From Desulfoscipio geothermicus (GTDB taxonomy: Bacteria; Bacillota; Desulfotomaculia; Desulfotomaculales; Desulfallaceae): a DNA stretch of 64,000 bases. How positions within the stretch are numbered: the first letter of the stretch is position 1; every line of letters begins with the position of its first letter. Shown one piece after another: positions 3,893 through 17,228 of this stretch. The position numbers and the translations under genes were made by a program. The DNA lies in the NCBI GenBank assembly GCA_016841205.1, contig JAENZP010000003.1, positions 186,001 to 250,000 of the forward strand, written 5' to 3'. Under the pieces are notes generated by a model. The model saw nothing but the letters and a program-made list of their open reading frames with translations. It was not told where the DNA came from and did no database searches.

Positions 3893-5074
3893 TTATATAT
3901 TTTCTATCACCATGGCAACACCCTGCCCGCCACCAATACATAATGTAGCTAAACCATATTTGCTGTTCCGCCGTTTCATTTCATGCATTAGAGTAACCAG
4001 TATTCTGGTTCCGCTGGCACCAATAGGATGTCCAATGGCAATAGCACCGCCATTAACATTTGTTTTATCCATGGGCAGGTCCAGCCCCCTAGCTACTGCC
4101 AGTGACTGGGCCGCAAATGCTTCGTTAGCCTCTATCAAGTCGATATCCGCAATGCCAAGACCAGCCTTTGCCAGCGCTTTCTTACTGGCAGGAATCGGCC
4201 CTGTACCCATATATGCAGGATCAACACCGGCGGTGGCTGATGAGCGAATGGTGAATAAAGGTTTAAGTCCCAGTTCAGCCGCTTTTTTAGCAGACATGAC
4301 TACCACGGCAGCCGCTGAATCGTTAATACCTGAAGCATTACCGGCCGTTACAGTGCCGTCCTTCTTAAAGGCAGGTTTTAACTTAGCCAGCGCTTCAACT
4401 GTGGTGCCACGGCGCGGGAACTCATCAGTATCAAAATATACAGGTTGACCTTTTTTAGCGGGTACCTGTATCGGTACTATTTCATCCTTGAAGCGCCCTG
4501 CGTCAATAGCTGCGATAGCCTTCTGCTGACTGCCGGCTGAAAAAATGTCCTGATCTTCCCTTGTAATACCATATTTTTCAGCAATATTCTCTGCAGTTAT
4601 GCCCATATGCACATCGCCAAATGCACACCATAAGCCGTCTTTAATCATTGTATCTACCATTTTGGCATCGCCCATGCGGTAACCCCAGCGGGCTTTTGGC
4701 ACCAGATAAGGTGCAGCTGACATGTTTTCAGTACCTCCGGCCACGATTATATCGGCTTCACCGGCGGTAATCATCTGAGCAGCCGTAGCCACTGATTTTA
4801 AACCTGATCCGCATACAATATTTAATGTCCATGCAGGTATTTCAACAGGTATACCCGCTTTTACAGATGCTTGACGAGCCGGGTTTTGTCCTAAACCTGC
4901 CTGCACAACATTACCCATAATTACCTCGTCAACCTGATCGGGCTGAACACCTGTCCTGCGTAGAGCCTCGGCTATAACTAAGCCCCCCATGTCTGCAGCG
5001 CTAATATCCGCCAATGAACCACCGTATGAACCAACTGCTGTACGAACTGAGCCTACAATTACTACTTCCTGCAT
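3893..5074 (-). CDS. thlA: Acetyl-CoA acetyltransferase (thiolase)
   Basis: A 393-residue thiolase II. Catalytic Cys88 is in [10 protein letters not shown], the active-site His (about 349) in [12 protein letters not shown], and Cys379 in CIGGGQG. It splits acetoacetyl-CoA with CoA to two acetyl-CoA, or condenses them. It leads the operon with hbd and crt. A possible promoter lies at 5448-5477 in the long upstream gap. The gene symbol is by analogy; atoB would be equally apt. Confidence 0.95.
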
Positions 5075-5447
5075 AATTTATCTTTCTCCTTTCTGATTTT
5101 CCATATTTTGATCAACTATACTATGCATGTTCGACTGCTTTTATATATTTTTCCCAGTCCCCCCCTTATTTTTAATTTGTTATAGAGTATTTTAAACAAC
5201 TATAAGTGATATATTTATACTTATTTAGCTTTAACTGATTTTTTATTTGTTTAACAAATATAAATCCACATTACATATAGTTTAGATATCTAAGCAAGTT
5301 TTATGCCAATTTCCAAAAACATGATAACACTCATTATCCATTTGCAATTAGTTCTCAAGTTTAGTTTTATTAGCTACCTATTTAAGAGACAATAGCCACT
5401 TCTCCTAGACCAATCCAGCTTGCCTCTAAGTAACCATAATAGTAATT

Positions 5448-5477
5448 AAATTACAGCACTAAAATATTTTATGTCAA
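5448..5477 (-). promoter_or_regulatory. Possible sigma-A promoter of thiolase-hbd-crt
   Basis: On the minus strand a perfect TTGACA (5472-5477) stands 18 bp from TAATTT (5448-5453). It would give a leader of roughly 365 nt. The -10 box is imperfect and the spacing long. Confidence 0.35.
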
Positions 5478-5694
5478 ATGATTTCTGATAAAGCTATGGG
5501 TGTCTGATTTTTGTACAGACTTCGCCGTTAGACTGTTTAAGATCTTTCCTTATTAAGTATCTATTTATAAATTACGGCAAAAAACATAATATCCCTTTTT
5601 TTCTAATTGCAAAAATTAAAAATTTTTTCAAATATTACACTTTTATTTATATTATATTCAATAAACATGTGTTTTAAAATATAAAACTTCTTAA

Positions 5695-5739
5695 AAAATA
5701 TTTAAGCCAGCGAAAATATTCCGCCGGCTTAAATATTTT
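5695..5739 (-). terminator. Terminator of the bcd-etfBA-FeS oxidoreductase unit
   Basis: 18-nt arms (5695-5712, 5722-5739) pair with one mismatch around a 9-nt loop. The T-rich end of the hairpin serves as the run-off on the minus strand. It is placed just past the stop at 5773. Confidence 0.8.
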
Positions 5740-5772
5740 TAATCAATACTTACATACTAAATTACTTTTATT

Positions 5773-7761
5773 TTATTGCATATAACGAGCAACTAGTTCC
5801 GCAATATCTCTTACCTGCACATTTTCTTCTTGACCCTTATCTTTTAGACCGTCTTCAAGCATGGTCAGGCAGAATGGGCAGTTAACAGCAATTAGATCTG
5901 GTTGGGTTTGCAAGGCCTGTTCCGTTCTCATCACATTAATCCGAGTGCCATGCTCTTCCAACCACATCCGGCCACCGCCGGCTCCGCAACAAAATGCACT
6001 GTTTCTATTGCGTTCCATTTCCGCCAGGGAGGCACCAGGTATTTTGCTGATAATATTACGCGGTGCATCGTATTCATTATTGTAACGTCCAAGCATGCAT
6101 GAATCGTGATAAGTTAGTTTTAATCTTTCTTCAGCACCTTGCAGGTTAATCTTTTTATCTTGCAGCAATTTGCTAATTAGCTGGGTATGGTGAATGACCT
6201 CATAATTACCGCCAAATTGTGGATATTCATTTTTCAACGAATTGAAGCAGTGCGGGCAGCAAGTAATAATCTTTTTAACCCCGTAACCATTCATTGTTTC
6301 AATATTTTCATCCACCAGCGATTTGAATAAGTATTCATTTCCCAACCTACGAGCTGAATCACCACAGCACTTTTCTTCACTGCCTAGGATCGCAAAACTA
6401 ATGCCAGCGGCTTTTAATATTTTTACCATAGATTTGGCAACATTCTTAATCCGTTCATCGAAGGCGCCTGCACAACCCACATAGAACAAATATTCAACAT
6501 CTGAATTATCTTCCATAAGCGGCACATCAAGCCCATCGGCCCAATCACCCCTGGTGGTCCAACCCACGCCCCAAGGATTAGAATTACGTTCCATATTTGT
6601 GAAAGCCAGCTGAGCTTCACCAGGGAATTCACTAACATCTAATACCAGGTGACGCCTTAAGTCAATTAGTTTATTGATATGCTCATTTAATTGCGGGCAG
6701 TGTTCCTGGCAAGCATAACAATTAGTACATGCCCAGATAATATCTTCACTGAGAATTTCACCGGCCACTTCCGGCAAATCAGCCTTATTGTCGCCTTTAT
6801 TGGGTAAATGTTCCCGTAAAGTAAGGATTACCTTTTTAGGTGATAATGGCTTGCCACTGAGGTTGGCCGGACAATTATCTTGGCAGCGACCACATTCGGC
6901 GCAAGCATAACAATCAAGCAGCTGTTTCCAGGTATAATCGGTAATTTTACTTACCCCGAAATTCATTTCTTCATCTTCGTCTTCATCTTCGTCTTCATCT
7001 TCGTCTTCTTCGTCGCCTAGATTTATTTTTTTAATTTGGCCGCCCCGGGGCTGCAAATTGCGGAAATAAATATTGATGGGGGCCGCTAGTGGGTGTACTA
7101 AAGGAGAATAACGGAAGAAAACTAGTAATCCCAAGGCAGGTAAAATAGCTAACCAGTAAAATACTTGATATAAAACACCCGCTGCTGTCATTCCGGCAAA
7201 AGCGTTCACCAACATACCAGTTATCGGAGCCATTTCATAGCGAGCTTCTGTACCGGACGCAACGGCATTGGCAGCACTGCCGATATAATAACTAACAATC
7301 ATTAAAATAATGGCAACAGTTAAGGCAACTATCATTTTTTCTTCTTCCCAGGGCCCTACATCAAGGCGCGGGACTTTAGCAACATATCTGCGCCAAGTGG
7401 CAATTGCCATACCAAGGAAACCAAAAACACCAAAAATATCAATTAATAAGTAAAAAAACGGATTGTTAAATTTTATTACAGGAAATAAGCCCTCTAAAAT
7501 AAATAAAACCAGACCAATGGCGAAAAGGTTGATGCCCCAAAAAATACAAACGTGCATAAAACCAGCTGAACTATCACGCAGTAATCTTTTTTGCCCCAGC
7601 ACGTTACCCAGCATTCCCCATAATCTTTCCGTGGACTGGTCAAACCTGTTTTCAGGCATGGCCATAGCCAGCTTTTCGTAGCGTTCCTTGATACCCATAG
7701 CCAAAGAGTACACTGCGAAAATGCCCAAAGCTAATAAAATAACAATATTAATTATGTTCAT
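5773..7761 (-). CDS. Membrane FeS oxidoreductase, ETF:(mena)quinone oxidoreductase type
   Basis: 662 residues. The N-terminal part (about 1-235) has some six membrane helices of NarI/DUF224-associated type. An acidic Asp/Glu linker follows (about 250-265). Then come two 4Fe-4S ferredoxin motifs (CYACAECGRCQDNCP and CTNCYACQEHCP) and two CCG domains with CCGDSARR, CCPHCFNSL, HDSCMLGRYN and CCGAGGGRM. This is the architecture of the HdrDE-like proteins encoded beside etfAB in syntrophic and sulfate-reducing fatty-acid oxidisers, proposed to move electrons from reduced ETF to membrane menaquinone. It lies downstream of etfA, with a hairpin in the 154-bp gap. The role is inferred from context; the domain reading is firm. 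Confidence 0.85.
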   Translation of the reverse strand: MNIINIVILLALGIFAVYSLAMGIKERYEKLAMAMPENRFDQSTERLWGMLGNVLGQKRLLRDSSAGFMHVCIFWGINLFAIGLVLFILEGLFPVIKFNNPFFYLLIDIFGVFGFLGMAIATWRRYVAKVPRLDVGPWEEEKMIVALTVAIILMIVSYYIGSAANAVASGTEARYEMAPITGMLVNAFAGMTAAGVLYQVFYWLAILPALGLLVFFRYSPLVHPLAAPINIYFRNLQPRGGQIKKINLGDEEDEDEDEDEDEDEEMNFGVSKITDYTWKQLLDCYACAECGRCQDNCPANLSGKPLSPKKVILTLREHLPNKGDNKADLPEVAGEILSEDIIWACTNCYACQEHCPQLNEHINKLIDLRRHLVLDVSEFPGEAQLAFTNMERNSNPWGVGWTTRGDWADGLDVPLMEDNSDVEYLFYVGCAGAFDERIKNVAKSMVKILKAAGISFAILGSEEKCCGDSARRLGNEYLFKSLVDENIETMNGYGVKKIITCCPHCFNSLKNEYPQFGGNYEVIHHTQLISKLLQDKKINLQGAEERLKLTYHDSCMLGRYNNEYDAPRNIISKIPGASLAEMERNRNSAFCCGAGGGRMWLEEHGTRINVMRTEQALQTQPDLIAVNCPFCLTMLEDGLKDKGQEENVQVRDIAELVARYMQ
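6969..7015 (-). repeat. Short tandem repeat encoding an acidic linker
   Basis: Three copies of a 12-bp unit of the form TCTTCATCTTCG, followed by a partial copy, lie inside the FeS oxidoreductase gene. They encode alternating Asp and Glu between the membrane and iron-sulfur parts. The unit length is a multiple of three, so changes in copy number would keep the frame. Confidence 0.75.
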
Positions 7762-7868
7762 GTTGACCCTTCACCTCATCGATTATTTCGGTATATTCCC
7801 GTGTCGACACCCCTCGTTCAACACACCGTTCCTGTCCGAAATTGACCGAATATTTTATCAAATAATAG

Positions 7869-7904
7869 TTTACAGCAGAGCAGTATTAACTACTCTGCTG
7901 TAAA
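7869..7904 (-). terminator. Intercistronic hairpin between etfA and the FeS oxidoreductase
   Basis: A perfect 12-bp inverted repeat (TTTACAGCAGAG at 7869-7880, complement at 7893-7904) with a 12-nt loop starts 12 bp past the etfA stop. There is no strong T run, so it may be a partial terminator or an RNA-stability element that sets less oxidoreductase than ETF. Confidence 0.55.
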
Positions 7905-7915
7905 AACTTAAACTA

Positions 7916-8890
7916 TTAAGCAATTACTTTCTTGACTTCTTCTTTTAGAATAGGCACAACATCAAACAAGTCACCAACAACACCATAGTCGGCTACTTTA
8001 AAGATATTGGCTTCTTCATCCTTGTTAACGGCCACAATGCACTTGGCGGAACTCATACCGGCCAGGTGCTGGATAGCGCCGGAAATACCACATGCAACGT
8101 ACAATACGGGAGAAACTGTTTTACCGGTTTGGCCAACCTGGAAACTCTGAGCAATCCAGCCAGCATCCACAGCCGCCCTGGAAGCGCCCACAGCAGCTCC
8201 GACCACATCAGCCAGTTCTTCTAAAATCTTAAAGTTTTCAGGTCCCTTCATACCACGGCCGCCGCTGACAATGATATCAGCTTCGGTAAGTTCCGGACGT
8301 TCAGAGGCCACGCGAATGACTTCCTTAACAACCTGGCGTACTTCACCAACATTGGCATCAACGGTGACCACTTCGGCTGCTTTAGCATTCGAGGCAACCG
8401 GGAAAGTATTGGGACGGATAGTGGCCATAGCGGGCCGTGCATCAGGAACGCAAGCCTTGACTATAACCTTGCCAGCATATATCGGGCGGGTAAAAACCAG
8501 CTGGCCATCTGCAACTTCCATACCAATGCAGTCGGTCATTAAACCGGTTTGCATGCGCTGGGCCACCTGGGCAGCCAAGTCGCGGCCAGTAACAGTACAG
8601 CCAAGCAATAATGCGCTGGGCTCATATTGTTTAATTAAATCAGCGATTACATTAGTGTAACCATCAGTGGAATAATTTTCTAAAGCAGCATTATCCACCA
8701 CATATACTTTATCCGCACCGTATTCACCAAGGGATGCGGCTAATCCGGCTACATCTTTACCTACTAAAACTGCACATAACTCTTCACCCAGTGTGTCAGC
8801 AGCTTTACGGCCTTCACTTAAAAGTTCAAAAGAAACTTTTTTAATTTGTCCTCCAAGCTGTTCGGCAAAAACCCAAATCCCTTTCGCCAT
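7916..8890 (-). CDS. etfA: Electron transfer flavoprotein, alpha subunit
   Basis: 324 residues. The N-terminal ETF domain (about 1-190) is followed by the FAD-binding C-terminal domain with [12 protein letters not shown] and the [23 protein letters not shown] segment split over the FAD site. It pairs with EtfB to take electrons from the acyl-CoA dehydrogenase encoded upstream. The ATG has an AAAGGAGGG site and lies 36 bp after etfB. No extra ferredoxin domain is fused at the N-terminus. That fits the quinone-linked type rather than proving it. Confidence 0.95.
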
Positions 8891-8926
8891 TAACTATTTC
8901 CCTCCTTTAAAGAATGTGCTATTTAA

Positions 8927-9697
8927 CTAGATAACCTTTGCTTCTTCGCGCAACAGCTTAGCAAGTTCAGCGGCGGCTTCAGCTGCTTCGCCCGGTATAA
9001 CTTTACCAGCTTGACGCGCTTCGGGCAGCGAGAAGGAAATTGCCTTTACTTTGGGAGCAATCTGGCTGTCATCCAAACCGACATCGGCCAAAGTCTTTTT
9101 CGCTAAAGGTTTTTTCTTGGCTTTCATAATACCCTTCATGGAAGGATAACGGGGTTCATTTAAACCTTTTTGAGCTGTGATAACTGCCGGCAGAGAGACT
9201 TCAAGAACTTCATTTCCGCCTTCGATTTCGCGGGTAGCTACAGCCTTGCCACCAGCAACTTCAAGTTTGGTAACCACATTAACTACCGGAATGTTTAAGA
9301 TTTCGGCAACTCTTCCGGCAACCTGAGCAGAACCGTCATCAATGGCCCTAAAGCCACCCAAAACGAGGTCATATTCCATACCGCTGATCGCTTTGGCCAG
9401 AATAGTGGCGGTGGAGTATTCATCCAACTCCTTATCACCAGCATCAACCAGCACAGCATCATCGGCGCCCATGGCCAGAGCCTGTCTTAAGGCATCCTGG
9501 GCCTGCTGTTCACCAACGCTGATTACGGTAACTTGACCGCCATCTTTTTCGACGATTTTCAGGGCTTCTTCTACAGCAAACTCATCGTACGGGTTTACAA
9601 TCATGCTAACCCCTTTACGATCTATTTTGCCGTTACCGTCCAGAACGATTTTGGCCTCCGTGTCAAAGGTTTGCTTCAGGCAAACTAGGATTTTCAT
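8927..9697 (-). CDS. etfB: Electron transfer flavoprotein, beta subunit
   Basis: 256 residues, starting MKILVCLKQTFDTEAKI, with VNPYDEFAVEEAL and the recognition-loop region typical of EtfB (ITAQKGLNEPRYPSMKGIMKAKKKP). It is the partner of EtfA (36-bp gap). The start codon follows AAAGGAGG. A 353-bp gap with inverted repeats separates it from the upstream acyl-CoA dehydrogenase gene, so etfB may have its own promoter or a processed leader. Confidence 0.95.
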   Translation of the reverse strand: MKILVCLKQTFDTEAKIVLDGNGKIDRKGVSMIVNPYDEFAVEEALKIVEKDGGQVTVISVGEQQAQDALRQALAMGADDAVLVDAGDKELDEYSTATILAKAISGMEYDLVLGGFRAIDDGSAQVAGRVAEILNIPVVNVVTKLEVAGGKAVATREIEGGNEVLEVSLPAVITAQKGLNEPRYPSMKGIMKAKKKPLAKKTLADVGLDDSQIAPKVKAISFSLPEARQAGKVIPGEAAEAAAELAKLLREEAKVI

Positions 9698-10050
9698 ACG
9701 CTTCCTCCTTTGCTGATTAAGTATAACTTATTGTATTGGGTCCCTTACAAGAATTGGACCTAGGTATTAGTTAAACGATGGCATTTATTTGCCGTTAAAC
9801 CCATGACTTTTACCACAACTAATTAGTGAAAACGCAGACATTCCCAAAGCTCTAATAGTGTATCTATTTCGGGATGCTCCAGGATAAAGTCTAACATGCT
9901 TCACTAATTAAAGTGGTATCGCATAGGTTTGGTTATACTATTGGTGGCATGCCATCGATAAATATGATTTCGTTATAAATATCAGAAATCCTTTTTTTCT
10001 TTAAAACATTATTGCTGTATTTAAAAATAATTATTATTGAGGCAACTTAA
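9698..10050 (-). other. 353-bp gap between bcd and etfB with several inverted repeats
   Basis: No standard gene. On the minus strand it carries a 10-bp perfect inverted repeat AATTAGTGAA/TTCACTAATT (9823-9832 and 9899-9908) enclosing about 66 nt. It also has hairpin-forming GGTCC/GGACC arms (9739-9743, 9756-9760) just before the etfB ribosome site, and a TGGCATGCCA palindrome (9947-9956). A 24-codon ORF (9823-9897) fills the large loop, but it has no clear ribosome site. This looks like a structured leader. Confidence 0.4.
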
Positions 10051-11193
10051 TTATTTCGCAAGGATTTGGCCAGCAATAACTATGCGCTGTACTTCACTGG
10101 TGCCTTCATAAATTTCAGTAATTTTGGCATCACGCATCATACGTTCTACCGGATACTCGCGGGTATAGCCATAACCACCGTGAATTTGCACGGCCTTCTC
10201 AGTTACCCACATGGCAGTTTCAGCTGCATACAATTTACACATGGCTGATTCCTTACTATATGGCAGATGCTGGTCTTTCAAATAAGCAGCACGATACACC
10301 AGCATTCTGGCTGCTTCTATACGGGTGGCCATATCAGCCATCATCCACTGCAATCCTTGGAAACTGCTGAGCGGAGCACCGAATTGTTCACGAAGCTTGC
10401 TATATTTAACAGCTTCATCAAAAGCGCCTTGAGCAATACCCAGTGCCTGGGAAGCGATACCAATCCGGCCGCCGTCAAGGGTCATCAAAGCGACTTTAAA
10501 GCCCTGGCCAATTTCACCGAGCAGATTTTCTTTGGGAATTCGGCAATTTTCAAACACTAACTCATAGGTTTTCGAGGCCCTGATGCCCATTTTGTGTTCT
10601 TTTTTACCAAAAGTAAAGCCGGGCGTACCCTTCTCAACTATAAAAGCAGTTAATCCCTTGCTGCCTTTAGACTTATCCATTTGAGCGATGACCACATAAA
10701 CTGAACCCACTTCACCGTTGGTAATAAAAATTTTGGAACCGTTTAATACATATTCATCACCATCAAGCACAGCCGATGTCTTTACAGAACCAGCGTCAGT
10801 ACCAGCTCCCGGTTCAGTCAGGCCAAGCGCGCCGATTTTTTCACCGCTAGCTAGCGGAACCAAATATTTTTGCTTTTGTTCTTCTGTACCAAAGTTATAA
10901 ATTGGCCAGCAACACAGTGAGGTGTGGGCGGAAACTAAAACTCCGGAAGAACCGCATACACGGGAAAGTTCCTCTACAGTTATGGCATACGAAAGGTTAT
11001 CCATCCCGGCACCGCCATACTCTTCGGGGAAGGGAACACCACTAAGGCCCATCTCAGCCATGGCGTCCCATAAAGACCAATCATACTCTTCCTCTTCGTC
11101 CATGGGACCCGCCTTGGGAGCGATTTCCTTTTCTGCAAAATTCCGTACTGTTTTACGGAGCATTTCTTGTTCTTCACTAAGCAAAAAATCCAT
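10051..11193 (-). CDS. bcd: Acyl-CoA dehydrogenase (butyryl-CoA dehydrogenase type)
   Basis: 380 residues from the ATG at 11193, which follows GAGGAGGAGAAAG; a longer reading from a TTG at 11238 has no ribosome site. FAD acyl-CoA dehydrogenase: substrate and flavin segments [13 protein letters not shown] and [13 protein letters not shown], with the catalytic Glu in [11 protein letters not shown] near the C-terminus. It oxidises butyryl- or other acyl-CoA to the 2-enoyl-CoA, passing electrons to the ETF encoded next. First gene of the unit. The leader holds a GGGGACAA inverted repeat, and the divergent gap to minC contains a large palindrome. Confidence 0.93.
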
Positions 11194-11230
11194 TCTTTTC
11201 TTTCTCCTCCTCTTGTTGCATTTGTTATAT

Positions 11231-11299
11231 GGGGACAATCTATTTAAATATATATTATTTTAACAACTAAACATACCATTAGCAATAGAAGTTGTCCCC
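11231..11299. repeat. 69-bp segment with GGGGACAA terminal inverted repeats
   Basis: GGGGACAA at 11231-11238 and its complement at 11292-11299 enclose an AT-rich core immediately upstream of the bcd ribosome site. It resembles the GGGGACA-ended REP-like elements that some Firmicutes carry with IS200-like transposases. That comparison is from memory and unconfirmed. Confidence 0.35.
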
Positions 11300-13027: not shown

Positions 13028-13654
13028 TTAAATCTGGACGATTCTTTTCATCTCCCAAAGAGTCAGTCCAGGTAACAAAGCATAATCTTCAGTATGAAGA
13101 TGACTGGGCGCCGAGGCATCAAACAAAACATTGCCCGAAGGTGGAAACTCATCATCCCCCTCCCATAAAACAAAGGTAATGGGGATTTTGGGCAGCACGG
13201 GCACCGTTACAGCCACATCGCCTATGTCTTCTTTCCACCCGCCAAGCTTCAGCGCCGCTTCGACCAGTTTTTTAGTTTTACCGGCAAATATAGCAACCAG
13301 GGGCTTGATTGCCCGGCTGGTAAAAGGACCGATATATATTGAGCCGCTAGGTAACTCCTTAAAGGACACCTTGGTATTTTCCACCACCCGGGGACTGCAA
13401 TGGGTAAGGTAATGCAGAAGTACTATCTGGTAATCTATTTGCACTTCCTCTGTCTTCTCACCTTCCCCATCACAATATTTCACTTCTCCCCCTGGATAAT
13501 ATACATGATACTTAGAGCCTAAAAAAGGTACAGTTAAAAAAAACCCGGACTGGTCAAAATCAACCAAGGCATTACCAGCCATGTCCTCGGGCACGGCACG
13601 GGCAAATTCCTTAATAGCTTTCTTATGAGCGGGTATTAAATTTATTAGTGCCAT
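13028..13654 (-). CDS. DUF3786 domain protein
   Basis: 208 residues from the ATG at 13654; a TTG three codons earlier is possible. I recognise it as a DUF3786-type protein, common in strict anaerobes such as Desulfotomaculum and Moorella, from YHVYYPGGEV, the LLHYLTH segment and FKELPSGSIYIGPF. No membrane segment or signal peptide is seen. Function is unknown. In other genomes members sit near corrinoid or C1 genes (from memory); here the partner is a NUDIX hydrolase. Confidence 0.7.
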   Translation of the reverse strand: MALINLIPAHKKAIKEFARAVPEDMAGNALVDFDQSGFFLTVPFLGSKYHVYYPGGEVKYCDGEGEKTEEVQIDYQIVLLHYLTHCSPRVVENTKVSFKELPSGSIYIGPFTSRAIKPLVAIFAGKTKKLVEAALKLGGWKEDIGDVAVTVPVLPKIPITFVLWEGDDEFPPSGNVLFDASAPSHLHTEDYALLPGLTLWEMKRIVQI

Positions 13655-13856
13655 AGAAACCAAAACCCCCTTTTAAAACCAAGCCTTTTAAGGCCCACCA
13701 TACAAGCATTTTACCACAAAAAACATTTTTTTAAGTATTTAAGTCTAATCGATCTATAGCTTATTTTTCTTTACATCGGCAAGGATTTTTTTCTATTTGC
13801 ATAGAATTATTATATTACTTATATTAAACATCAATTCTGTCGGGAGTGTATTAAAC

Positions 13857-14840
13857 GTGCTTCGCATTGGCATACCAAGCGCTTTATTTTATTATGTATA
13901 TTATCCCATGTGGAAGACTTTTTTAGAAGAACTGGATGTTCAAGTGGTAACCTCTGGTGATACAACTCGTCAATTACTTAATTACGGCGTACGTGAAGCA
14001 CTCGCCGATGCTTGCGTTCCCGTAAAAGTTTTTTTCGGTCACGTCATGGCATTAATTGACCAAGTGGATTATTTATTTATTCCACGCATCGTTTGTTTAA
14101 ATAAAAAAACTGTATACTGCCCCAAATTCTTGGGTTTACCAGATATGATTCGTTATGGAATTGCTAATATGCCTCCCATTATTGATGTGCGTATAGATGC
14201 CCGTGATCATAAAGACAAACTATTTGCCGCTTATTACAAAGTAGGTAAAATACTTGGTAAAACCCCAAGGCAAATTACCAAAGCATTATTAAAAGCTAAA
14301 ACCAGCCAGTATAAATTCCAAAAGTTATTACGTAGCGGCTTGCAGCCAATAGAGGCTATTGATAATATTTCGACCGGTAAAAAGCAAAAACCGCTTGACA
14401 ATAAAGGAGAATTAAAATTTGCCGTGGTAGGCTACCCATATATTATTCATGACCAGTACATTAGCGTTGGTATAATAAATAAATTACATAAAATGAACAT
14501 AAATGTAGTAACATCGGATAACATTTCCCCTTTTACTCTGAAGTTGCAACGACATGGATCGTCCAAGCGTTTGTTTTGGACTTTTAGCGAGCGTACCCTT
14601 CGGGCAACCCGTTATTTTGCCGGACGAAAAGATATCGACGGGATAATACATCTATCAGCCTTCGGTTGCGGACCGGACTCAATATTGGACAGGTTTATTC
14701 AATTAAATAATCAATCAAGTACCATACCATTTATGAGCCTGGTCATTGACGAACAGAGTGGCGAAGCCGGAGTTACTACCAGATTGGAAGCGTTTGTGGA
14801 TATGGTCAAAAGAAAAAAAGGGGCGTACCGTAATGCGTAA
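13857..14840 (+). CDS. Acyl-CoA dehydratase activase-related protein (COG3580/DUF2229-like), subunit 1
   Basis: 327 residues from a GTG at 13857 behind GGGAGTG; an earlier TTG (13797) has no ribosome site. It begins LRIGIPSALFYY, typical of DUF2229-like proteins related to HgdB. Conserved cysteines at C53 (DACVPVKVFFGH), C80 and C88 (VCLNKKTVYCPKF), and one in FGCGPDS near the C-terminus could bind a cluster. The C-terminal motif DEQSGEAGVTTRLEAFVD matches the same place in the next gene and in 2-hydroxyacyl-CoA dehydratase subunits. It overlaps the next gene by 8 bp, so translation is coupled. The substrate is unknown. Confidence 0.78.
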   Translation: MLRIGIPSALFYYVYYPMWKTFLEELDVQVVTSGDTTRQLLNYGVREALADACVPVKVFFGHVMALIDQVDYLFIPRIVCLNKKTVYCPKFLGLPDMIRYGIANMPPIIDVRIDARDHKDKLFAAYYKVGKILGKTPRQITKALLKAKTSQYKFQKLLRSGLQPIEAIDNISTGKKQKPLDNKGELKFAVVGYPYIIHDQYISVGIINKLHKMNINVVTSDNISPFTLKLQRHGSSKRLFWTFSERTLRATRYFAGRKDIDGIIHLSAFGCGPDSILDRFIQLNNQSSTIPFMSLVIDEQSGEAGVTTRLEAFVDMVKRKKGAYRNA

Positions 14841-15954
14841 AGTAACCTTTCCCCACATGGGCGAATCCTACCGCGCTTTTAAAATGTTATTAAATGACTT
14901 GGGCAATGAAGTAATACTACCTCCCCGGCCCAGCCTTAAAACTTTAAATTTAGGCGTTCAGTATACGCCTGAATTTGCTTGTTTTCCTTTAAAAGTATTA
15001 ATGGGTACTTACCTTGAAACTATCGAAAAGGGTGCCAATATTTTGGTCACCACCGGAGGGGTGGGACCCTGCCGGGCCGGGCTTTATGCCGAATTACATA
15101 AAAAAATACTGCATGACCTGGGGCTCTCTATAGAAATGATTGTATTTGAACCACCCCGTTTATACCCCTTTAATTTTATCCGCAATGTACATAAACTTAA
15201 TTCGGGCAGATTATCCATTAAAGCTATAGTTGATCGCATAAAAAAAGGCTGGCGCAAATTACAGGCCCTGGATAATGCAGAAAAGTTAACCCATATTATA
15301 AGACCCAGAGAGCTAAAAAAAGGTACAACAACCCAAAAATATAGACAAGTACTGGAATGGATTGATAATGCCAATACAACAAGTGACATTATTGAAGCCG
15401 AAGCGGCAGCTCTTGAAGAGTTGCATAAAATCCCCCAGGATCTTGGCCGGTTAGTTGTAAAAGTAGGTATTGTCGGTGAAATATACGTGCTGTTGGAACC
15501 GACCGCTAATCTGGAAATTGAGGAAACGCTGGGCAACCTGGGGGTCGAGGTGGAACGTTCCATGTTTTTAACAGGTTGGGCAAGGGACAATACCTGGAAA
15601 GAGACTGTGGAGGGCATGACTGTTAAGGATGCCGCCCACCCTTACCTGCCTGAATTAATTGGCGGGCACGGCAGGGACTCCATCGGTAATACGGTTTTAT
15701 ACGCCAAACGCAAGTTTGATGGTATTATCCAACTGGCCCCCTTCACCTGCATTCCTGAAATAGTGGCACGTACCATATTGCCTGCAGTCAGCAAAGATTA
15801 TAACATACCTGTGCTCACCTTTTTTCTTGATGAGCAAACCGGGAAAGCCGGAATGAATACCCGTTTGGAAGCTTTTGTAGACCTCATGAAACGTAAAAAA
15901 TTTAAAAAACAGCATCAAGCTAATATATGGCTACCCTCCGAGGCCACTAATTAA
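14833..15954 (+). CDS. Acyl-CoA dehydratase activase-related protein (COG3581-like), subunit 2
   Basis: 373 residues from the ATG at 14833 behind AAGGGG, overlapping the previous gene by 8 bp. It is a paralogue of the first subunit: Cys50 (FACFPLKVLMGTY), Cys80 (GGVGPCRAGLY), a Cys in FTCIPEIVA and the DEQTGKAGMNTRLEAFVD C-terminal motif. HgdA/HgdB-like dehydratases and double-cubane proteins bind their cluster with three Cys per subunit, so these two proteins may form a heterodimer that the adjacent ATPase reduces. That is inference; no reaction is known for this subgroup. Confidence 0.78.
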   Translation: MRKVTFPHMGESYRAFKMLLNDLGNEVILPPRPSLKTLNLGVQYTPEFACFPLKVLMGTYLETIEKGANILVTTGGVGPCRAGLYAELHKKILHDLGLSIEMIVFEPPRLYPFNFIRNVHKLNSGRLSIKAIVDRIKKGWRKLQALDNAEKLTHIIRPRELKKGTTTQKYRQVLEWIDNANTTSDIIEAEAAALEELHKIPQDLGRLVVKVGIVGEIYVLLEPTANLEIEETLGNLGVEVERSMFLTGWARDNTWKETVEGMTVKDAAHPYLPELIGGHGRDSIGNTVLYAKRKFDGIIQLAPFTCIPEIVARTILPAVSKDYNIPVLTFFLDEQTGKAGMNTRLEAFVDLMKRKKFKKQHQANIWLPSEATN

Positions 15955-15979
15955 TAATTCAACCCAAGGAAGTGACTTT

Positions 15980-16945
15980 ATGCAAGCGTATCTTGGCATA
16001 GATGTAGGATCTGTCAGCACCAACCTAGTGATACAAGATCAGGCCGGAAAAATTATTGCCGGCCTTTATTTACGAACCAAGGGTCGCCCGGTTGAAACCA
16101 TCCAGGCTGGTTTGCAGCAAATAGTCCAATTAATACCCGAACAGATACAGATATGTGGTGTAGGCACAACGGGCAGTGGGCGTTACCTGGCCGGGGTGAT
16201 GGTTGGCGCGGATGCAATTAAAAACGAGATTACCGCCCATGCTGTTGCCGCCTCTCATTTTATTCCACAGGTACAAACAATTCTCGAAATAGGCGGGCAG
16301 GATTCGAAGATAATAATACTTAGAGACGGTATTGTCACCGATTTTGCTATGAATACCGTTTGTGCCGCTGGCACCGGGTCTTTTTTGGACCAACAGGCCT
16401 CCCGACTGGGCATTCCTATCACCGAATTCGGTGACTTGGCCTTAGAATCTCATAACCCTGTGCGCATCGCCGGGCGTTGTACGGTATTCGCAGAATCAGA
16501 CATGATCCATAAACAGCAAATGGGACATCCCATACCAGATATTATCAACGGTTTATGCGAGGCACTAGTGCGCAATTATTTAAATAATATCGGCAAGGGC
16601 AAGGAAATACTGGCTCCGGTTGTTTTCCAGGGAGGAGTAGCCGCCAATACAGGAATAAAGATGGCTTTTGAAAAGGCGTTAGGCATGGAAATAACGGTAC
16701 CTCCCCACCACGATGTGATGGGCGCCATTGGCGCGGCCATGCTGGCCAAAGAAGAACTTATAGATACGCATAAAACCACACGATTTAAAGGTTTTTCCAT
16801 TACTGGATTAACTTATCGTACCAGCAGCTTTGATTGCAACGGATGTCCAAATAGCTGTGAAATTGCTCAAATTTACGAGGAAGACAGTATTATAGGGCGC
16901 TGGGGGGCAAGGTGCCCAAGATGGGATATCATTCAGGAGGGGTAG
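15980..16945 (+). CDS. ATP-dependent acyl-CoA dehydratase activase (HgdC/BadF family)
   Basis: 321 residues, ASKHA-fold ATPase. Phosphate-1 loop GIDVGSVSTNLVI is at the N-terminus and IGGQDSK is central. The two cysteines that bridge a [4Fe-4S] cluster across the dimer lie in VCAAGTGSFLDQQ and AGRCTVFAESDMIH. Family members couple ATP hydrolysis to a very low-potential electron transfer into a partner protein. The C-terminus adds a Cys-rich tail (CNGCPNSCE, then GARCPRWD) not needed by classic HgdC. ATG with AAGGAAG, 25 bp after the second HgdB-like gene, which is the likely partner. Confidence 0.88.
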   Translation: MQAYLGIDVGSVSTNLVIQDQAGKIIAGLYLRTKGRPVETIQAGLQQIVQLIPEQIQICGVGTTGSGRYLAGVMVGADAIKNEITAHAVAASHFIPQVQTILEIGGQDSKIIILRDGIVTDFAMNTVCAAGTGSFLDQQASRLGIPITEFGDLALESHNPVRIAGRCTVFAESDMIHKQQMGHPIPDIINGLCEALVRNYLNNIGKGKEILAPVVFQGGVAANTGIKMAFEKALGMEITVPPHHDVMGAIGAAMLAKEELIDTHKTTRFKGFSITGLTYRTSSFDCNGCPNSCEIAQIYEEDSIIGRWGARCPRWDIIQEG

Positions 16946-16946
16946 C

Positions 16947-17156
16947 GTGACAGAGCACGATTTAAAAATACTGGCGATTTTTTTTAACACTGTAATTGTG
17001 GTTATTATGCTCGTCTCCGGCATTTGGGTGGGGATTGATGCCCGTAAAACGGGGCATACCCTGGTAGAGTCAATTACCTGGGGAATATTTGCCGGGTGGA
17101 TGTTAATCGTGGGACCAGTACTTTACTATTTTTTTAAAAACAAACTTTACAAATAA
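16947..17156 (+). CDS. Small two-helix membrane protein of the activase operon
   Basis: 69 residues starting at a GTG one base after the activase stop, behind GGAGGGG. Two hydrophobic segments (about 9-28 and 42-62) are separated by a short polar GIDARKTGHTLVE loop, and there is a basic C-terminus. I do not recognise the family. Tight spacing indicates cotranslation with the activase, so it may anchor the complex at the membrane; this is inference only. Confidence 0.6.
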   Translation: MTEHDLKILAIFFNTVIVVIMLVSGIWVGIDARKTGHTLVESITWGIFAGWMLIVGPVLYYFFKNKLYK

Positions 17157-17189
17157 AACCATTTTTTAATCGCTGGCACATTAACTTTT

Positions 17190-17209
17190 CGCCCGGGTTA
17201 CCCCGGGCG
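17190..17209. terminator. Bidirectional terminator between convergent units
   Basis: Perfect 8-bp stem CGCCCGGG/CCCGGGCG with a 4-nt loop, followed by ATTATTT on the plus strand and AAAAG on the other side. It lies between the plus-strand activase operon and the minus-strand aminotransferase gene. Confidence 0.8.
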
Positions 17210-17228
17210 ATTATTTAACAAGGATCTT

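Follow-up and report, generated by a model that had tools for sequence, protein, structure and literature searches.

Two paralogous split DUF2229-activase triads in Desulfoscipio geothermicus, one beside sporulation genes and one near minC, with the marks of an ATP-driven electron-transfer system

The ATP-driven injection of electrons at very low potential is among the most demanding redox tricks in biology, and its known users make a short list. Within this superfamily, (R)-2-hydroxyisocaproyl-CoA dehydratase (HadBC) is a heterodimer of related subunits with three-Cys clusters. The activases of the superfamily are dimers with one bridging [4Fe-4S] cluster, in which ATP lowers the potential of the electron that is passed to the catalytic subunits (PMC11971306, PMC6739815; these and the other articles cited are drawn upon in their available parts). 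For class I benzoyl-CoA reductase, six Cys of BzdN (36/73/100/263/293/327) are described for an [8Fe-9S] cluster and three Cys of BzdO (95/128/380) for a [4Fe-4S]-OH2 cluster, with the CoA ester of BzdNO bound in BzdO (PMC11971306). In this work, we characterize an operon of Desulfoscipio geothermicus located in a stretch of 64,000 nucleotides (assembly GCA_016841205.1, contig JAENZP010000003.1, positions 186,001 to 250,000 of the forward strand), hereafter the window, whose genes A and B encode two DUF2229 proteins, gene C an HgdC-type ATPase/activase, and gene D a small membrane protein.

Homology, fold, Cys pattern and natural fusions indicate that the A-B-C triad is probably an ATP-driven low-potential electron-transfer system. 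The new observation is the existence of two paralogous split triads: one adjoins sporulation genes, and the window-type copy is found next to minC. The A-domain family DUF2229 is present in 359 of the 398 phylum genomes that were sampled and in 41/41 relatives (own genome included), and we take it to be the COG3580-COG3581-COG1924 group, presumably annotated as acyl-CoA dehydratase activase-related. With such a distribution, and with a second triad in the same genome, the initial annotation of this system as an orphan does not hold; a family this widespread, bearing the sequence and fold marks of a low-potential system and little studied, is a clear gap.

Both A (E 5.5e-54, 183.5 bits) and B (E 5.8e-11, 42.9 bits) pass the Pfam model PF09989 (cut-off 29.4 bits), and profile-profile comparison with hhalign recognized them as distant paralogues (probability 99.8). 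The Pfam HGD-D model gave C-terminal matches below its cut-off of 28.4 bits (A, 25.5; B, 20.4), and the NCBIfam double-cubane model NF040772 gave 13 bits for A, against a cut-off of 350, and nothing for B at E 0.001. About three well-placed Cys and a DEQ-G-AG-TRLEAF motif had been noticed initially in each paralogue, with the caveat that the Cys might prove scattered and unconserved across homologues, which is not the case. The motif is present and conserved in A and B, and Cys53, Cys88 and Cys271 of A, as well as Cys50 and Cys80 of B, are kept in 46/46 split rows (the window, the second copy of its own genome and 44 others) and in 32/32 fused rows, two of which are repeated genes (L044/L089 and L046/L090). 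Cys306 of B is kept in 46/46 split rows and was not scored in the 32 fused rows because these end short of it; both full-length fused proteins have a Cys in the equivalent motif. As an internal contrast, a fourth Cys of A, Cys80, is unconserved (21/46 split, 0/32 fused).

In a double-cubane protein (DCCP)-like protein of the same genome, eight Cys are shared by no fewer than 24 of 25 relatives, Cys95 and Cys129 (24/25) among them. Six of the eight (76, 114, 144, 309, 342, 375) were singled out by a spacing like that of the BzdN double-cubane ligands, as given in the available parts of PMC11971306. In three joint alignments, the three Cys of B always fall on Cys114, Cys144 and Cys375, and Cys53 and Cys271 of A always fall on Cys114 and Cys375, while positions 76, 309 and 342 are gaps or other residues in both proteins, leaving the six-Cys [8Fe-9S] set incomplete. 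Because of this match to the 114/144/375 pattern and the lack of Cys at the other three positions, A and B look, by sequence, like three-Cys subunits of the 2-hydroxyacyl-CoA dehydratase (HAD) kind and not like double-cubane subunits. Separately, the genome carries two DCCP-like HgdB genes (L036, contig C24; L037, contig C25), each beside an activase devoid of the Cys tail described below.

The single-chain AlphaFold models of A (mean predicted local distance difference test score 87.4, predicted template modelling score 0.86) and B (84.0 and 0.82) are of high confidence. In Foldseek searches against the PDB, the first 12 chains for A and the first 15 for B were all 2-hydroxyacyl-CoA dehydratases, double-cubane proteins or benzoyl-CoA reductases. 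With VIA-align, the best match of A was 8s02_B, from the BzdNO structure (Z 16.5, 280 residues aligned, 3.8 Å), closely followed by 3o3m_D of 2-hydroxyisocaproyl-CoA dehydratase (Z 16.4), which was also the best match of B (Z 15.5, 297 residues aligned, 4.3 Å); both models fall within the HAD-subunit fold, and the best unrelated folds reached Z 10.0 (A) and 10.4 (B) and covered one domain. A sequence search of B against the PDB returned no convincing match, its kinship being seen through the structure model only. Furthermore, A and B are closer to the shorter chains (8s02_B, 3o3m_D and kin, Z 14.4-16.5) than to the longer ones (3o3o_A, 8s2r_C, Z 10.9-13.3), the latter being taken as the BzdO/HadB side by length and Cys numbering. 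According to the models, therefore, both proteins adopt the benzoyl-CoA-reductase / 2-hydroxyacyl-CoA-dehydratase / double-cubane superfamily fold.

Protein C passes the activase model TIGR00241 (194 bits, cut-off 125.4), matches Pfam BcrAD_BadFG (E 2.7e-49), and finds its kin in the PDB in MbdQ (6e-43) and the 1hux activator (9.4e-39). It scored below the equivalog cut-offs of the class I benzoyl-CoA reductase ATPases (108.8/578, 84.4/380.2 and 69/312.85 bits) and below that of methanogenesis marker 15 (TIGR03286; E 1e-37, 130.1 bits, cut-off 455.75). The initial annotation had described a bridging-cluster Cys pair and an extra Cys-rich tail, both of which are borne out by conservation: Cys128, Cys167, Cys286, Cys289 and Cys293 are kept in 41/41 split and 32/32 fused rows, and Cys312 in 41/41 split and 31/32 fused rows (one gap). 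We take Cys128/Cys167, as in HgdC, to be the pair bridging the dimer through a [4Fe-4S] cluster. In fused forms, the tail Cys sit between the activase and A domains.

Natural fusions join A, B and C in diverse arrangements, thereby tying them to one function. All 30 long proteins fetched, which were the best-scoring of the phylum search, carry activase, A and B in one chain; the complete ones read C-C-A-B and measure 1415-1471 residues (~1440), while other lineages have C-C-A plus a separate B, or A-B fused plus a separate C (at L135 the A-B frame was reported by the family search and missed by gene calling). The proposal that A and B are themselves the acceptor of the activase, made at first annotation, gains support from the C-C-A-B and A-B fusions and from the three Cys per subunit at cluster positions of the benzoyl-CoA reductase/HAD kind, the middle Cys of A being ambiguous. 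Among the neighbours of 33 loci with C-C-A-B, C-C-A or A-B fusions, no family recurs closely, the commonest being an ABC-type ATPase (6 loci, 0.5-2.6 kb away).

The second A-B-C triad of the genome lies on contig C13 (L031:1-15322), in the order D-Ala carboxypeptidase, SpoIIAA-, SpoIIAB- and SigF-like, SpoVAE1, GerA, A-B-C and a lysA-like decarboxylase. Here and below, neighbours were named by BLAST to reference genes and in part checked by Pfam or NCBIfam; DacF, SpoIIAA, SpoIIAB, SigF and LysA are the names given to D-Ala carboxypeptidase, STAS, HATPase, sigma-70 and pyridoxal-phosphate decarboxylase matches found in the familiar gene order. At one sporulation locus checked gene by gene, the STAS, HATPase, sigma-70, SpoVAC/SpoVAEB, SpoVAD, SpoVAE and GerA families all passed, and only 10 bp separate the end of GerA from A. 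For 12 relatives, a pair of split triads each was retrieved, with window-type loci partly repeating contigs of the first relatives' set (L113/L005, L116/L007, L122/L012, L124/L009, L128/L008, L147/L010). In these pairs, one triad has a GerA-type gene upstream in 12/12, with a sigF-like gene in 11 and a lysA-like gene in 10, and the other is near minC in 12/12, with NUDIX in 11 and DUF3786 in 10; at L148, gerA is separated from A by three genes, and a sigF-like gene was not observed.

In the wider phylum, a sigF-like gene occurred within the fetched stretch at 14 of 18 split loci, with only lysA at L074, gerA and lysA at L086, and neither at L075 and L078. Conversely, among 20 SpoVAD loci, A-B-C was present at 5, and at 4 of the 10 having a sigF-like gene, which leaves the sporulation link far from universal; both sets are the best-scoring rows of longer lists and not random samples. 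No sigF-, spoIIA- or spoVA-like gene was found in the stretches of 20 fused or C-C-A loci, among which L103 has a GerA-like gene and L105 an M50-ScpA-ScpB set. At three A-B fusion loci (L131, L132, L134), a gpr-like germination-protease gene lies 0.7-2.8 kb away (Pfam-checked for L131 only), too few cases to weigh; at L131:4387-9490, from another lineage of the same order, the fused gene and C are downstream of gpr.

A rapid IQ-TREE phylogeny of 48 rows, each joining A and B, places the window in a 26-row clade (Shimodaira-Hasegawa-like approximate likelihood ratio test 100) with no spore-linked label inside. The spore-linked rows stand outside it without forming one clean clade, with one unlinked row, L078, among them, and the label needs 3 changes, versus 15.1 in shuffles. 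This placement makes the window triad the paralogue without a spore link in Desulfotomaculum-type and Syntrophomonas-type lineages. A forespore promoter at the triads was considered and found no support, a sigmaF/sigmaG-like pattern upstream of A staying at shuffle level in spore-type loci (1/27, 1.5 expected from a simple shuffle; 4/28 in window-type loci, 2.2 expected). As a side observation, L016 is labelled Actinobacteria and yet groups inside Peptococcaceae, probably reflecting a mis-binned assembly.

With the integration of these findings, the following working model may be proposed, in which we infer the cluster types, the electron path, the ATP coupling and the A/B heterodimer. Protein C would dimerize around one [4Fe-4S] cluster held by Cys128/Cys167 of each subunit, and its four-Cys tail would house an additional metal or Fe-S site, perhaps the entry point for electrons from ferredoxin. 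Binding and hydrolysis of ATP would then push single electrons from C into an A/B heterodimer. Like the subunits of 2-hydroxyacyl-CoA dehydratase, A and B would each contain a cluster bound by three Cys that leaves one iron site open, and the heterodimer would reduce a small molecule or cofactor, probably non-CoA. Several points weigh against this model. The proposed cluster content of A, B and C is read from Cys positions, and the tail of C could bind zinc instead. Moreover, it is the unconserved Cys80 of A, and not the conserved Cys88, that meets Cys144 of the DCCP-like protein in 2/3 alignments, the third placing Cys88 on Cys129. Finally, five A-B pairs lack an adjacent C gene (L020, L028, L030, L080, L150), so that C may have more than one client or may not be needed everywhere.

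A CoA-ester substrate is the first alternative to be weighed: A/B would be a divergent (R)-2-hydroxyacyl-CoA dehydratase or an acyl-/aryl-CoA reductase, supplied by the nearby fatty-acid or propionate genes. The fold and three-Cys pattern shared with HAD fit this proposal, as do the thiolase, Fe-S CCG, ETF-beta-like and acyl-CoA dehydrogenase genes of the window and the methylmalonyl-CoA mutase genes that follow the triad in 7 of 24 window-type loci (context counts refer to the 24 window-type loci of a 26-locus relatives' set, or to 25 rows when the window is added). Against it, a DCCP/HGD-D profile at E 0.001 detected only A and B themselves near 128 compared loci, some of them repeated, in a search that recovered both DCCP-like genes of the own genome as positive controls, and BLAST likewise revealed no dehydratase-like neighbour at 108 loci; the consistent adjacency to a known dehydratase that would have undone the initial reading was thus not found. 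A CoA ester is disfavoured by this lack of neighbours, by HGD-D scores below the cut-off and by the resemblance of both subunits to the shorter chains, whereas the CoA ester of BzdNO sits in BzdO (available parts of PMC11971306), taken here as the longer side; the near-universal presence of the family in the phylum sample and its occurrence among sporulation genes point the same way. We therefore regard this alternative as unlikely. The view of the initial annotation that a CoA-ester substrate is unsupported is fair, although acyl-CoA metabolism genes lie upstream of the triad; the fatty-acid and mutase/cobO neighbours may point to a CoA or corrinoid link but are not counted as evidence.

Very unlikely, in our judgement, is that the window-type triad reactivates corrinoid enzymes by reducing Co(II) to Co(I), which would allow CobO to re-adenosylate the methylmalonyl-CoA mutase cofactor. 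ATP-driven corrinoid reduction is known from other activators (available parts of PMC6739815), and after the triad a cobO-type gene (c16) occurs in 6 of 24 window-type loci, meaB (c17) in 6 and mutase genes (c11, c12) in 7, 6 of the latter with cobO. Nevertheless, the window has no such genes in view, nor do the remaining 17 loci, several of which are short contigs that could not all show them, and no B12 genes were recognized beside spore-type or fused loci, many of whose neighbours are unannotated. At L008:13096-17285, the triad is followed on the same strand by cobO, meaB and methylmalonyl-CoA mutase genes, an arrangement seen in part at L009, L010, L012, L013, L014 and L017, not with each gene everywhere. 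It is likewise highly improbable that the triad is a device for Fe-S or metallocofactor maturation or repair rather than a small-molecule reductase: a cysteine-desulfurase-family gene (TIGR01977 in the window) lies near the triad in 11/25 rows, and methanogenesis marker 15, which ends in an activase, has an N-terminal region to which a segment of A is similar (15/27 members at E <=0.1, best 3e-4; C, 1e-37), but the desulfurase is on the opposite strand, mutase genes intervene in six loci, and the match to marker 15 is not specific, since it falls on the same C-terminal domain of A that is recognized by the double-cubane model (26/27 members).

As initially described, the four genes lie on the plus strand, overlapping or at most 25 bp apart. 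They run head to tail over 13857-17156 as one tight operon (Table 1): the stop of A (14840) lies beyond the start of B (14833), an 8-bp overlap, 25 bp separate the B stop (15954) from the C start (15980), and 1 bp separates the C stop (16945) from the D start (16947). The GTG start of A is that chosen in the initial annotation, the list of open reading frames also showing an extended version that begins with TTG at 13797. The hairpin 3' of the operon is one of 5 terminator-like matches in the region, with shuffles giving 4.7, and such matches are thus common by chance; the RNA of 17155-17225 folds better than 200/200 shuffles (z -3.05). Upstream of the triad, the DUF3786 gene is followed by NUDIX and minC genes, and then by the acyl-CoA dehydrogenase, ETF-beta-like, Fe-S CCG protein and thiolase genes.

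Table 1. Features of the window discussed in the text.
Feature	Position	Strand	Basis or remark
Gene A, 327 aa, DUF2229 / benzoyl-CoA reductase-HAD-fold subunit (by model) with Cys53, Cys88, Cys271	13857..14840	+	PF09989, AlphaFold model, Cys conservation
Gene B, 373 aa, A paralogue with Cys50, Cys80, Cys306	14833..15954	+	PF09989, profile-profile match, model, Cys conservation
Gene C, 321 aa, HgdC-type ATPase/activase; Cys128/Cys167 pair and tail C286-x2-C289-x3-C293-x18-C312	15980..16945	+	TIGR00241, PDB kin, Cys conservation
Gene D, 69 aa, two hydrophobic stretches; small membrane protein, an accessory confined to window-type loci	16947..17156	+	Locus comparison
Terminator-like hairpin 3' of operon	17189..17210	+	9-bp stem, 8 G-C pairs; RNA folding
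Fatty-acid oxidation genes: thiolase, Fe-S CCG protein, ETF-beta-like, acyl-CoA dehydrogenase	3896-11238	-	~2.6-10 kb upstream of triad
DUF3786 gene, divergent from A	13028-13663	-	In 12/25 window-type rows

Neither Pfam nor NCBIfam yielded a family for gene D at E 0.001. Its homologues occur in 13/26 loci of the first relatives' set and in 11/12 window-type loci of the paired relatives, and none was found in any spore-type or fused locus compared. Since D is found only beside window-type triads, any membrane role is lineage-specific at most, and the earlier suggestion that the system is membrane-linked is weak. Other features of individual loci were also recorded. In Sporotomaculum syntrophicum (L007:12099-15395 and L116), an insert of ~3.3 kb between B and C contains two related 405-residue open frames, probably insertion sequences. 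A selenium link was considered, given selA/selB-type genes upstream of the triad in L026, L027 (5460-13044) and L029, from Thermosyntropha-type genomes, and was rejected, such genes being unrecognized at the other loci; a selenium study places an activase and a dehydratase subunit near yedE/yedF (available parts of PMC5322559).

Within the open-access literature, most subscription journals lying outside that scope, we found no functional study of DUF2229/COG3580/COG3581 triads, no mention of them among sporulation genes, and none of 2-hydroxyglutaryl-CoA dehydratase together with spoVA and sporulation. In the available parts of two C. difficile sporulation studies (PMC3789822, PMC3738446) and one of C. 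perfringens (PMC4433262), the word 'dehydratase' is absent from all three and 'activase' from PMC3738446 and PMC4433262; the C. difficile sigmaG operon CD0773-CD0775 corresponds to spoVAC-AD-AE (PMC3789822). The available parts of PMC4153887, PMC12176620, PMC12491067, PMC5376575, PMC7306483, PMC3380726 and PMC10418091 contain nothing on these triads. The repeated presence of one subgroup among sporulation genes suggests the spores of anaerobes as a place to look for a phenotype. We tentatively propose, as a possibility that still falls short of an even chance, that in many spore-forming anaerobes a split copy of the DUF2229 electron pump is reserved for the developing spore, alongside sigF and spoVA functions, that Desulfotomaculum-type lineages keep a second, vegetative copy, that of the window, and that the triads constitute a separate non-CoA branch of the benzoyl-CoA reductase/HAD/double-cubane superfamily performing a near-universal housekeeping reduction in the phylum. 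If this were true, it would reveal a hitherto unnoticed low-potential redox step in sporulation or germination of anaerobes. The initial annotation had thus captured the operon, the Cys, the probable acceptor role of A/B and the lack of a dehydratase neighbour; its orphan status and membrane link fared poorly, and the sporulation tie of the sister triad had escaped it.

The family is already named and its parts resemble known machines, so that the system is not categorically new. HadBC and its activator resemble it in the fold of both subunits, in the related, three-Cys character of the two partners, and in a homologous activase (4eht); unlike HadBC, A and B miss the HGD-D cut-off and align from about residue 28 of a 375-residue HadBC subunit, the activase has the added four-Cys tail, and no dehydratase-like gene stands beside the triad. 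As available descriptions have it, DCCP with DCCP-R (PDB 6eno, 7yyl) shares with A/B the fold, an activase partner, the C-terminal Cys and the TR-EAF motif, whereas three of the six double-cubane-spaced Cys are not Cys in A or B, and these are two paralogous genes where DCCP is one. Class I benzoyl-CoA reductase (BzdNOPQ, MbdONPQ) has the catalytic-dimer fold and activase homology in common, with C below the ATPase equivalog cut-offs and the six-Cys set of BzdN not preserved in A/B. In methanogenesis marker 15, an activase domain follows a stretch similar to the C-terminal portion of A (L084:7418-8404; window C 15980-16942), with the score of C far below the TIGR03286 cut-off and an A-like match that is weak and not specific. 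The closest relative is the DUF2229/COG3580-3581 plus activase family, to which the window triad belongs by having the same A, B and C parts and Cys and by passing the PF09989 and TIGR00241 cut-offs; the window form is split, with a single C and the addition of D, whereas the long fused form carries two activase domains.

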